A DNA stretch of 59,943 bases from Candidatus Dormiibacterota bacterium (GCA_035544955.1 DASZZN010000040.1:1-59943); one strand, 5' to 3'; shown: positions 24,920 to 28,718, numbered from the stretch's first letter. Translations and numbers: made by a program. The notes: generated by a model from the letters alone, not told the origin.

Positions 24920-25987
24920 CCCCAACCGGGCCGAATCCCGGCTCGGCCCATCCTCACCGTTTGCTCCAGTTCTAGGCAATTACCGCGACCGCCTGGCGAG
25001 ACCGCTCGCGGATCAATTCCTTGGCGCCGACCGTCGTCATCGCGTGCGCCTTGACGGAACCATGCACCAGATCTGGGCCGGCACGGCTGGCTGCGGCCAT
25101 TGTTCACCGTGCTGGCCTGGGCTGACATCCTGTTCCCCGAGACCGGCCGCGATGTTCCCGTCTCGCTGACGATCGAGCCTGACGGCCACGGTGGCGATGT
25201 CTGGCGGCGCACCTTCGCCTTTGCGCGCGAGCGGCGGTTCAACGCGACGATGGCCTACGAGGGCTCAAGCGTGATCGAGCGCCTGGGACCTCGCGGGATA
25301 CTACAGGTGCCATGGCATCTGCGAGTTCAGTCGAGGGATGCGATCCAGATCACGACCGGCGAAACCTGCCTGCGGATCGGCGGACTGCGGCTGCGTTTTC
25401 CGCGCTGGCTGCGTTTCCAGGTTGGCGCGCTACAGCATGCCCGACCGAACGGCCGCATGGAACTCGACCTCGTTGTCACGCACCCTCGGCTCGGTCGGAT
25501 TTTCGGCTACTCGGGAACGTTCACGGTTCAGCGCGAGTCGCTCGATGCCCCGCCACACGAAGCGTCTCCGGGGATCTATCTCGATAGGTACCGCCCGTGG
25601 TTTTACGCAGCCGCCGCGTACAACCTTGCCTGGGGACTGATGGCGATTCTTTGGCCGCTGGCATTCTTCCCGCTCATTCGTATGACATCCCCCACCGAGA
25701 CCGCCATCTGGCGAGCGCTGGGCATGATGGTTCTCGTCTACGCACCGGCGTACTGGTGGGTCGCGCGTGATCCGGTCGCGCATCGGCACCTGGTCGCGAT
25801 CGCACTTCTTGGCAAGATCCTCGGCCCACTCGGATTCCTATGGGCACTGAACGCACACACGCTGCCGCTCGTCTTCGGCCTCACCATCGTGACGAACGAT
25901 TGTTTCTGGTGGCCGGCCTTTACAGCGTTCCTAGTCAGAGCCGCGCGATTTTCTGGCGGGTGGAGAGAACTGGTTCAGGGCCGTTAG
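24885..25987 (+). pseudogene. DUF4166 + membrane protein, broken by a frameshift
   Basis: A DUF4166 protein followed by four membrane spans can only be read with one frame change. The first part starts at ATG 24885 and reads to about 25078, ending LDGTMHQIW. The continuation RHGWLRPLFTVLAWADILFP starts in another frame at about 25080, preceded there by a stop at 25052, and runs to 25987. The junction lies in TGGGCCGG. The second part shows the DUF4166 landmarks FPETGRDVPVSLTI, WRRTF and ERLGP, then four spans. It is a recent pseudogene, a sequencing error or a programmed shift; no slippery heptamer is visible. Its neighbour is the TIGR01777 epimerase, a common pairing. An independent TTG start at 25100 would give only a truncated product. 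Confidence 0.75.
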
Positions 25988-25995
25988 TTCTCGTC

Positions 25996-26024
25996 TTGAC
26001 AAATACACAGATCTGTGTAAGGAT
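25996..26024 (+). promoter_or_regulatory. Promoter with 16-bp palindromic operator
   Basis: Perfect -35 TTGACA (25996-26001); 16-17 nt later a weak -10 (TAAGGA/AAGGAT). Between them TACACAGATCTGTGTA (26004-26019) is a perfect 16-bp palindrome, the classic place for a repressor. The first coding gene, at 26065, has its own Shine-Dalgarno. Confidence 0.6.
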
Positions 26025-26064
26025 GGCAGCGTTGCCGCCCGCCAAGCCGCTCGAGGAGTCCCCC

Positions 26065-26427
26065 ATGCGCCCATCGTGGAAGCTCGCCCTCATCGGGGGC
26101 GAGGTCACCGTGCTCGCCGCCTTCACCGGAGTCGGGATTCACCTGGCGATGCAGCCACACCGCATCGCCTTTCGCCCGCCGCCGCTCGTCCTGCCGACGA
26201 CACGACCGGCCGTGATTCCAAGCGTTGGTATCCCGTTGGTCCCCGTTCCGCGGCCGACACCACCGAGCGCCAGTCCGCCCGGGCTGGGGCCTGAGCTCTT
26301 TCGCAAGTTCGGTCAGCAGGACCATGACCTGGCGATGCAGGAATGGGACATCCTGCGGGGCGTGACCGGTGCCATCGAGCGCTACGTCGAGGCCCAGATC
26401 GCCGAGCGTTTCCCCAAGAAGCGCTGA
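26065..26427 (+). CDS. Proline-rich membrane-anchored protein of the T4SS-like module
   Basis: 120 aa, start set by GAGGAG 6 nt before the ATG; an ATG at 26023 lies inside the promoter -10 and is not used. Residues 8-27 are one transmembrane helix (ALIGGEVTVLAAFTG), then a proline-rich stretch (about 35-85; PPPL, VPVPRPTPP) and a charged helical tail. Single-span proline-rich proteins like this occur in T4SS and TonB-type systems. No family recognised. It is coupled to the next gene by an ATGA overlap. Confidence 0.7.
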   Translation: MRPSWKLALIGGEVTVLAAFTGVGIHLAMQPHRIAFRPPPLVLPTTRPAVIPSVGIPLVPVPRPTPPSASPPGLGPELFRKFGQQDHDLAMQEWDILRGVTGAIERYVEAQIAERFPKKR

Positions 26428-26657
26428 TGGATCAGCTCAAACACCTGATCGAGGTCTGGACCAGCTACGCGCAGGGACTGACGGGCAGCATTGGCGCCCT
26501 GGCGTTCGTTTGCGCCTTTATCTGGAAGATGATCGCCATCGAGCCTCGCAGCGTGATGGAGGCCAAGCGATGGATCGGCCGGATCGTCTTCGGCACGATC
26601 GGCGTGGAGATGGCCGGCATGCTGGTCCGCGTGCTGGTGGATTCGGTCAATCACTGA
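26427..26657 (+). CDS. Small two-span membrane protein, VirB2/TrbC-like in size and layout
   Basis: 76 aa. Two hydrophobic helices, ALAFVCAFIWKM and IVFGTIGVEMAGMLVRVLV, with a short basic loop between (KRWIGR) and small polar ends. This is how conjugative pilin subunits of the VirB2/TrbC type look, apart from the absence of a long cleaved signal. Assignment rests on size, topology and the TrbL-like neighbour, not on a motif. It overlaps the upstream stop by one base (ATGA). Confidence 0.55.
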   Translation: MDQLKHLIEVWTSYAQGLTGSIGALAFVCAFIWKMIAIEPRSVMEAKRWIGRIVFGTIGVEMAGMLVRVLVDSVNH

Positions 26658-26670
26658 GCGGACTTGAAAC

Positions 26671-27549
26671 CTGCTAGAGATCTTCTCCGCCCTGATCATC
26701 GGCTTCTTCAACAACCTGATCAACGACGTCCGCGACTCGATTGCCGGCAATGTAGAGACCTACCTGCTGAGTACGCACGACCTTTCGACCCTGACCCCGC
26801 GTCCACTGACCGAGGAGCCGGCGCTGCAAGCGATGTACCACCTGACGCTTGGCATGGCGGACCTTCTTTTAGTGCTGGTTTTCACCTGGGCCTCCCTTCG
26901 CAGCCTGTGGGAACACAGCTTTCGTGCCCATTACACCTTGAAGGTCGTGTTGCCACGGGCGATGGCCGCCATCGCCATGGCTCACTTCGCGCTGCTGTTC
27001 GGCCAGATGGCGATCGACTTGAACAATGCCCTGGTCCACACCATCTGGACGCAGGCGCTTCCGGGCGGGTCGCCCCGGATGCCGTGGACCTTCGCCATGT
27101 CGAACGGCTTTGGCCTGCCGCTCTTCGAGGTCGTGGTACGGCTGGCGATCGCGGTGATGCTCGTCATCGTCGCCTTTACCTACGTCGTGCGGTTCGCCCT
27201 GCTGGCGGTGCTCCTCGCGGTGGCGCCGCTGGCCTCGATCTGCATGATCCTTCCGGAAACCAAGCGATACGCGCAGTCATGGCTGCGCCTCTTTCTCCTT
27301 ACCGTCTTCATGCAGTTTGGTCAGGTCCTCGTGCTCCGTTTCGCCAGTTTGTTTGCCGATCAACTCGGCGCCCGGCCTCTTGAGGCGCTCTACGGCGTTG
27401 CGGTGCTCTACCTCCTAATCAAGGTGCCGGGGCTGATGAACGCGTCCTCCCATTTCGAGTCGAAGGCGCAGCACGTCGCCGAGGGTTGGGCCAAGCGGGC
27501 CATCAAAGCCGGCATGGCGACCGCGACGACACGGAGTTCGAGCGCATGA
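26671..27549 (+). CDS. TrbL/VirB6-like polytopic membrane protein
   Basis: 292 aa if read from the in-frame CTG at 26671, the first codon after a TGA; the first ATG is 26833. The peptide before that ATG (LEIFSALIIGFFNNLINDVRDS) is hydrophobic and protein-like, so the true start is likely upstream and non-ATG. Six or seven spans and the RFALLAVLLAVAPLASI block, together with the loops, resemble TrbL/VirB6 channel subunits of type IV secretion, which also have an N-terminal periplasmic region. No coupling ATPase is seen. It overlaps the next ATG by 4 nt. Confidence 0.65.
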   Translation: MLEIFSALIIGFFNNLINDVRDSIAGNVETYLLSTHDLSTLTPRPLTEEPALQAMYHLTLGMADLLLVLVFTWASLRSLWEHSFRAHYTLKVVLPRAMAAIAMAHFALLFGQMAIDLNNALVHTIWTQALPGGSPRMPWTFAMSNGFGLPLFEVVVRLAIAVMLVIVAFTYVVRFALLAVLLAVAPLASICMILPETKRYAQSWLRLFLLTVFMQFGQVLVLRFASLFADQLGARPLEALYGVAVLYLLIKVPGLMNASSHFESKAQHVAEGWAKRAIKAGMATATTRSSSA

Positions 27550-28112
27550 TCTTGCTGACCTCGACGCGCCTGGCGCTGTTCGTCTGGTCCTGCCGGCGGC
27601 CCCTGCTCGCCGGCGGCGCTGCCTGCCTGATGGTGCCCTTGCTGATCGCCGGGATGGTGGTGCAGGCCCGGCAGGATGGAGCCGGCGTCCTGATGCCGCC
27701 GGTGAAGGAGGCGATCATCACCCAGCCCTTCGGTTGCACGACGCTCGCGATCGAGCCCTGGTCGGCGGCGTGCCCCGGTCACCACTTCCACAGTGGAGTC
27801 GACCTGGCGGGGCCGCTCGGCACACCGATTTATGCCGCCACGCGAGGCACCGTGACCGTACGCCGCGAACGCGGGGGCTACGGCCTTTACATTCTCCTCA
27901 CTCGCGATCCTCAGCTCAGCACGCTGTACGGCCATCTCGACTGGCCGCTCGTGCAGCCGGGCGACGTCGTTGCCGCGGGACAGGCGATCGCCCTCATGGG
28001 ATCGACCGGCAACAGCACCGGACCGCACCTCCACTTCGAGGCGCGCATCGCAGGGGTTCCGGTCGATCCGCTCCCGCTTCTCCAACATGCGGCATTGGGA
28101 GGTGGTGGATAA
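27546..28112 (+). CDS. M23-family metallopeptidase
   Basis: 188 aa with an N-terminal membrane segment (about residues 20-40) and a LytM/M23 domain. Zinc ligands and catalytic His are at HFHSGVDLA, LYGHLD and HLHFE, all conserved, so it should cut peptidoglycan cross-bridges. In conjugation and T4SS loci such enzymes open the wall locally. Follows the TrbL-like gene with an ATGA overlap, so it belongs to the same transcript. Confidence 0.88.
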   Translation: MILLTSTRLALFVWSCRRPLLAGGAACLMVPLLIAGMVVQARQDGAGVLMPPVKEAIITQPFGCTTLAIEPWSAACPGHHFHSGVDLAGPLGTPIYAATRGTVTVRRERGGYGLYILLTRDPQLSTLYGHLDWPLVQPGDVVAAGQAIALMGSTGNSTGPHLHFEARIAGVPVDPLPLLQHAALGGGG

Positions 28113-28130
28113 GCCGAGACTCTCAAATAT

Positions 28131-28152
28131 CCCTCCCCCCTCGGGGGGAGGG
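28131..28152. repeat. G/C-tract inverted repeat, second copy
   Basis: CCCTCCCCCC (28131-28140) and GGGGGGAGGG (28143-28152), 10-bp arms with a 2-nt loop, followed by a purine-rich tract. Related to the element at 4251-4331. It lies between the peptidase and ssb. Confidence 0.5.
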
Positions 28153-28187
28153 CAGGGTGGGGGCACTCAATGGTAGGGAGTAAGAAA

Positions 28188-28565
28188 ATGGTCAACCGTG
28201 TGATTTTGGTCGGCCGCTTGACACGTGACCCAGAGATCGTCGTCAGCCCCAAGGGATTGACGATCGCGAAGCTTCGGCTCGCGACCAATAGCTACTCGAA
28301 GGACGATGACGGCAACCGGCAGGAGGACGTTCAGTATCACTCGCTGGTGGCCTTCGATCGCTTGGCCTCGATTTGCCAGGAGTTCTTGACCCGCGGCAAG
28401 TTGATCTATGCCGAGGGCAGGCTACGCAGTCACGAGTGGGACGGCAAGGACGGTTTGCGCCGCTACACGACCGAGGTCGTGATGGACCAGATGAAGATGC
28501 TCAGCCCGAAGACCGAGAGTCCCGTCGAGAACGGTCAGCCGGCCGCTGAGCCGGTCACTGCCTGA
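28188..28565 (+). CDS. ssb: Single-stranded DNA-binding protein, without acidic tip
   Basis: 125 aa. One OB-fold, starting NRVILVGRLTRDPE and continuing with LRLATNSY and YHSLVAFDRLA, RGKLIYAEGRLRS. The C-terminus ends KTESPVENGQPAAEPVTA, without the usual DDDIPF tip that recruits partners. So this SSB can coat DNA but may not recruit partners normally; a second ssb may lie elsewhere. ATG 28188 is used (GGGAG upstream); an ATG at 28170 is possible. Neighbour to the T4SS-like module and to ychF. Confidence 0.88.
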   Translation: MVNRVILVGRLTRDPEIVVSPKGLTIAKLRLATNSYSKDDDGNRQEDVQYHSLVAFDRLASICQEFLTRGKLIYAEGRLRSHEWDGKDGLRRYTTEVVMDQMKMLSPKTESPVENGQPAAEPVTA

Positions 28566-28580
28566 GGAGCAACAGCAAGA

Positions 28581-28718
28581 ATGATCCCCGAACCGCATCC
28601 CTACGATCCGGACGATCCAACCTATTACGACGAGACCTCCGAGGAGCTCGGCTATCTGGTTCCAGACCGGGGATTCCGGCCCGACCCGATGGAGGTCGAC
28701 GATTACCTGAGCCACTAA
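28581..28718 (+). CDS. Small acidic protein
   Basis: 45 aa, start ATG 28581 with GAGGAG 12 nt upstream. The peptide is rich in Asp, Glu, Pro and Tyr (DPDDPTYYDETSEEL) and ends DDYLSH. It sits between ssb and ychF, and its stop overlaps the -10 of ychF (TAAACT). A free-standing acidic peptide next to a tail-less SSB could in principle supply the missing acidic tail, but this is only a guess. Confidence 0.5.
   Translation: MIPEPHPYDPDDPTYYDETSEELGYLVPDRGFRPDPMEVDDYLSH

Follow-up and report, generated by a model that had tools for sequence, protein, structure and literature searches.

The window, i.e. the whole stretch of 59,943 nucleotides that was analyzed, is the complete contig G000:C40 of a 3.67-Mb, 95% complete genome (G000) of a Candidatus Dormiibacterota bacterium. 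An earlier note, made from the sequence of the window, had described five genes behind a palindrome-containing promoter as a minimal type IV secretion system (T4SS)-like membrane module next to ssb. All of these elements were found in place, as follows.

25996 to 26024, plus strand: promoter, with a -35 TTGACA at 25996-26001 and a weak -10 AAGGAT at 26019-26024
26005 to 26018: palindrome ACACAGATCTGTGT, within the spacer between -35 and -10
26065 to 26427, plus strand: bitopic Pro-rich anchored protein, 120 aa
26427 to 26657, plus strand: VirB2-like two-helix peptide, 76 aa
26671 to 27549, plus strand: TrbL/VirB6-like polytopic protein, 292 aa, CTG start
27546 to 28112, plus strand: membrane-anchored M23 endopeptidase, 188 aa (PF01551, 1.5e-30)
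28131 to 28152, no strand assigned: GC-rich perfect hairpin CCCTCCCCCCTCGGGGGGAGGG between the M23 gene and ssb, read from the sequence
28188 to 28565, plus strand: second, dedicated SSB (PF00436, 3.1e-29)
28581 to 28718, plus strand: 45-aa acidic ORF, rich in D, E, P and Y, conserved in the genus after ssb

The first three junctions between the genes are tight (an ATGA overlap, 13 nt and an ATGA overlap), and the 75-nt gap between the M23 gene and ssb holds the GC-rich hairpin. The gene spacing leads us to infer that all five are transcribed together. The promoter, TTGACA-AAT-ACACAGATCTGTGT, is kept throughout the genus and family; a generic sigma-70 scan did not call it, because its -10 element is weak. 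The TrbL-like protein appears to initiate at the CTG at 26671, a position occupied by GTG in most relatives, and because the true start is apparently this CTG, a standard ORF list shortens the gene to 26833. The gene immediately 5' of the module (25100-25987) encodes a DUF4166 domain and a weak DUF4345-like part.

By its Pfam match and predicted fold, the 292-aa protein is a TrbL/VirB6 relative, which upholds the description of the module as T4SS-like. It matched PF19597 (TrbL_4) at 1.2e-7, above the Pfam cut-off, and the family assignment extended to its relatives, with TrbL_4 matched by 20 of 22 homologues. The five best PDB fold matches of its AlphaFold model (pLDDT 76) were all R388 TrwI/VirB6, with probabilities of 0.89-0.99 and modest E-values of 0.05-0.34. 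The proposed VirB2 identity of the 76-aa peptide fared less well: its own match to T4SS_pilin (PF18895; E=0.022) fell below the Pfam cut-off, and 11 of 21 homologues matched this family at weak significance (best E 7e-5), so that the resemblance to VirB2 is weakly suggested. The peptide is 47-99% identical across the class, and was modeled as a confident helical hairpin (pLDDT 93.5), for which a PDB fold search gave no useful match. Its family was found in records labelled Dormibacterota, in Chloroflexi CF_ soil MAGs and under a few other or unspecific labels, which places G000 in Dormibacterota. A phage origin of the membrane proteins was rejected, as neither the VirB2-like nor the TrbL-like protein had a significant PHROG match.

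The Pro-rich protein consists of a TM helix, a Pro-rich linker and a conserved C-terminal helix, and a Pfam search with it returned no match. Counterparts of like layout occur in families f1, f2 and f3 (f1-f4 are family labels within the class, f1 being the family of G000); for f2 and f3 the relationship is defined by the layout and a short C-terminal pattern. The Pro-rich genes of f2 and f3 are also present at separate loci with regulon-type promoters.

Both metal-site motifs of the M23 endopeptidase, HSGVD and HLH, are intact. In f1-f3 the hydrolase slot takes an M23 protein or, in G050, a CHAP protein and, in G021, one with a borderline SLT match; such sharing of one slot by non-homologous hydrolases is expected if the slot serves wall opening. 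The primary SSB of G000, encoded on contig C29, ends in DPEDIPF, whereas the module SSB lacks an acidic tip of the DDDIPF type; two SSBs are present in most f1-f3 genomes. The acidic ORF follows ssb at six loci of the genus (cluster c26). Its membership of the module is uncertain, and it is speculation that, placed after a tip-less ssb, it might supply an acidic tail in trans.

Homologues of TrbL were found in 58 of the 61 genomes searched, G000 included, mostly in one copy. As to the five-gene order, for which a search in relatives had been suggested, VirB2-VirB6-wall hydrolase-SSB recurs in f1, f2 and f3 at chromosomal sites and with flanks that differ. The T4SS reading withstood both checks set in the earlier note, gene order in relatives and matches to TrbL. 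Family f4 keeps VirB2-TrbL without the hydrolase, and SSB adjoins TrbL in G060. Comparisons with five congeners gave dN/dS values of 0.01-0.04 for VirB2, 0.08-0.15 for TrbL, 0.16-0.31 for M23, 0.01-0.06 for SSB and 0.13-0.32 for the Pro-rich protein. These values (0.01-0.32) indicate that the module is intact and under purifying selection, but they are no proof of a working orphan module, because much of the divergence may predate the loss of its motor (below). Together with the breadth of TrbL and the order shared by three families, they make the module more than a chance arrangement. In two f3 genomes (L057:7915-9120 and L059:7033-9120) the VirB2 gene is duplicated with its own motif before each copy, and the first copy is cut at ~44 aa in both.

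The earlier note had seen no VirB4 or VirD4 in the window, and this absence extends to the whole assembled genome. Searches of the assembly with PF03135, PF12846 and two VirB4 protein queries found no VirB4, and a PF02534 search found no VirD4. AAA_10 matches in G000 were considered as VirB4 candidates and rejected, the one on C51 looking FtsK-like and that on C14 lying in a 1672-aa protein unlike VirB4. The view that the set is ATPase-free by nature did not hold, however, since VirB4 and PrgI partners are present in nearly every relative, mostly away from the module. VirB4-like ATPase (P-loop_TraG) matches were obtained in 55 of 61 genomes, a few of them being fragments or parts of other T4SS loci. 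In f1, VirB4 is the last gene of the operon XRE-PrgI/CpaE-TadA-TadB-TadC-Flp-TadE-Tad-PKD-RcpC-VirB4, and protein clustering revealed a comparable Tad operon ending in VirB4, without the XRE and PKD genes, in G020 of f2. VirB4 follows PrgI as a pair in f3 and lies close upstream of VirB2-VirB6 in f4, and in G018 the module directly continues a T4SS cluster that has a VirB4 ATPase. The G018 cluster (L046:5638-8824) also contains an EccE-matching protein (PF11203) beside its VirB4, TrbL and pilin genes. A second T4SS-like locus in f4, including L031:9919-14904, comprises a 96-aa protein, a TrbL-like 703-aa protein, a 125-aa protein and VirB4, with VirD4 nearby.

The VirB4 motor was lost in G000 by replacement of the Tad-VirB4 operon. 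Both flanks of the f1 operon are present on contig G000:C37, folB-motif-XRE on one side and, on the other, a 69-aa gene that follows VirB4 in relatives, and 11.5 kb of unrelated DNA lies between them (G000:C37:49589-61053; L185:4590-16053). The Tad genes (TadA, TadB/C, Flp, TadE and RcpC) are likewise gone from this orthologous site. Within the replacing stretch, ssb is present as a frameshifted copy followed by an acidic ORF, and XRE as a second, diverged copy; a Panacea/SocA-type antitoxin gene is also found there. An assembly gap was dismissed as the reason for the missing VirB4, as both flanks lie on one 114-kb contig; in G002, VirB4 is missing merely through a contig end. Thus, in this species the module is an orphan part; probably its uptake is impaired, or else the loss is recent.

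Genome-wide motif counts were obtained by pattern searches with up to 3 mismatches. In several genomes, the f1 motif, TTGACA-N3-ACACARATNYGTRT, precedes the module, recA, a PLD lipoprotein nuclease gene, radC and the Tad-VirB4 operon, and a weaker form precedes leuS-comEA-comEC. In G000, sites with at most one mismatch lie before the module, recA and the PLD gene, which encodes an exported PLD-family nuclease, and among the two-mismatch sites are those at the XRE gene and in the leuS-comEA-comEC region; at 3 mismatches, 18 sites were found vs 7 for the reversed pattern, so that only low-mismatch sites are trustworthy. A further motif site adjoins metH (L111:1552 and L201:4121, with PPK2 alongside in L111), where no obvious regulon gene is seen.

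The strongest evidence came from f3, because its motif, cTTAACAnnCCnGGGTTCC, was built from module sites only and thus tested out of sample, and because it ties the module to the DNA-uptake channel. It was found 30-32 nt before comEA in 3 of 4 comEA-comEC loci, and at the fourth it lies upstream of a start call that is probably too short. Of 6 prgI-virB4 loci, 4 also carry it 31-32 nt upstream (in one case as a weak site), those of G033 and G041 being without it, and it precedes ssb at 3 loci. The reversed matrix gave 0 matches in 316 kb. In f2, a motif was seen before the module and the Pro-rich gene, and none that was convincing before comEA/comEC. Control by SOS/LexA was ruled out, as lexA promoters carry CGAACN4GTTCG boxes instead of the motif; the module and recA promoters of G000 have no LexA-type box. 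The shared motifs suggest that the module is co-regulated with uptake genes, and the 90-aa XRE protein heading the f1 Tad-VirB4 operon is a candidate regulator.

DNA uptake, one of the options raised earlier, is retained as the best reading, as it fits the observations taken together. We consider it probable that a set of T4SS components was co-opted for natural transformation, working with a Tad/Flp pilus (in f1 and at least one f2 genome), ComEA/ComEC, RecA and RadC. According to this proposal, the palindromic promoter would turn on the module along with other uptake genes, and the wall would be opened locally by the hydrolase anchored in the membrane, an M23 protein here and CHAP or SLT in some relatives. 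PrgI and the VirB4 ATPase would then join the VirB2-like and VirB6-like proteins to build the part of a DNA-import machine that lies in the envelope, next to the Pro-rich bitopic protein. Incoming DNA would be passed to ComEA/ComEC, and its single strands, coated by the dedicated SSB that lacks the tip, would be available to RecA. The channel genes are intact in G000, where ComEC (PF03772) is encoded at G000:C9:129379 with comEA directly upstream. A T4SS serving DNA uptake is known from ComB of Helicobacter pylori (PMC13395361).

Several facts run contrary to uptake. G029 and G043 of f3 have ComEC while the module was undetected in them, the f1 link to comEA-comEC is a weak site upstream of leuS, the match of the 76-aa peptide to VirB2 is weak, VirB4 is missing from G000, and dprA was not located. 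Furthermore, f4 keeps VirB4-VirB2-VirB6, yet ComEC was undetected in 11 of 11 f4 genomes. The f4 arrangement would be natural for a chromosomal T4SS with protein or ssDNA as its secreted substrate, as in Patescibacteria or the gonococcal genetic island, with the SSB and the promoter sharing being secondary. VirD4, present in several f2-f4 genomes, points the same way, as does the finding that T4SSs, mostly without a relaxase, are widespread in Patescibacteria, a lineage placed near Chloroflexota and Dormibacterota (PMC12102498). However, VirD4 is absent from f1 save for partial matches in G005 and G008, the module has no candidate effector, and the motifs are common to comEA/comEC, recA, radC and a nuclease. 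On this evidence, we regard secretion as unlikely.

PafBC in mycobacteria provides comparable LexA-independent control of the DNA-damage response, and the module might be an incidental member of such a regulon, repairing or remodeling the envelope. The motif before both recA and the ssb operon of the module, and the lack of a LexA-type box at recA of G000, agree with this idea; however, damage genes would not typically include a Tad pilus, PrgI-VirB4, comEA-comEC or a secreted nuclease, and f3 reaches comEA-comEC through another motif. We therefore judge a damage regulon improbable. A wall-modifying complex, in which the endopeptidase and a membrane scaffold have nothing to do with DNA, would explain why M23, CHAP or SLT hydrolases share a common slot in f1-f3. 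It is very improbable, given the SSB within the operon, the VirB6-like fold, the motif shared with recA and comEA/comEC, and the retention of VirB2-VirB6 in f4, where the hydrolase is absent. Finally, the degraded conjugative element considered in the earlier note is hardly credible: TrbL and VirB2 are conjugation families and G000 has no VirB4, but the set is class-wide, nearly always single-copy and under strong purifying selection, with a conserved promoter and an intact second SSB, VirD4 is missing from G000, and f1 as a whole gave no more than two partial matches to this coupling protein.

The co-option of T4SS parts for DNA uptake, as favored here, can be set beside known systems. T4SSs usually export their substrates; ComB of H. 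pylori is the well-known DNA-importing case and acts upstream of ComEC. Like ComB, the proposed machine would use T4SS parts for DNA import, encoded by genes spread over separate loci. H. pylori, however, is a diderm whose ComB has VirB7-VirB10-type parts and is not known to involve a Tad pilus or a hydrolase-SSB operon; the module genes include no VirB8-VirB10, and VirB4 of the relatives sits in a Tad operon. The module is T4SS-derived and, on the proposed reading, would work like ComB, but we do not file it as a member of ComB because the motor is missing from G000. A second SSB besides the housekeeping one is also found in Bacillus subtilis, whose SsbB is a competence protein without an acidic tip, and in the gonococcal genetic island (GGI). 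The Dormibacterota SSB differs from these second SSBs in sharing an operon with T4SS-like membrane proteins, and GGI SsbB had no demonstrable role in DNA secretion or uptake (PMC3334931).

Tad genes are required for natural transformation in Micrococcus luteus, and the available text of that study mentions no VirB4, VirB6 or VirB2 partner (PMC4322843), in contrast to the Dormibacterota f1 Tad operon, which ends in VirB4. As described in the accessible portion of the Patescibacteria report, the T4SS of that lineage resembles the present one in its VirB4, PrgI, VirB6 and VirB2-like proteins and its broad chromosomal conservation, and one species cannot grow epibiotically without its components; unlike here, no M23-SSB operon or Tad link is mentioned in that portion (PMC12102498).

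A wider proposition, to which we give an even chance, is that this is a phylum-wide transformation machine, in which a T4SS core of VirB4, VirB6 and VirB2 is combined with a Tad pilus and controlled jointly with ComEA/ComEC, the wall hydrolase and the dedicated SSB, and that a T4SS was thus turned into a DNA importer a second time, independently of H. pylori ComB. A search of the available literature for a Tad-VirB4-TrbL competence link or for Dormibacterota competence found nothing. If true, a second importing T4SS, paired with a Tad pilus and belonging to a soil phylum that is uncultured, would reveal how export machines are turned round, and gene exchange in Dormibacterota would become testable. 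The promoter signatures offer a means of finding uptake genes in uncultured genomes, and the species studied here, with its module kept and its motor lost, constitutes a natural loss experiment. Among the soil bacteria of a meadow survey, a Dormibacteraeota species included, ComEC loci accompanied signs of high recombination (PMC7305173).

As a separate observation, Flp-pilin-like genes adjoin HIT-leuS-comEA-comEC in L118 (174-700), L119 and L126, the latter two having TadE/TadG-like genes in the vicinity as well.
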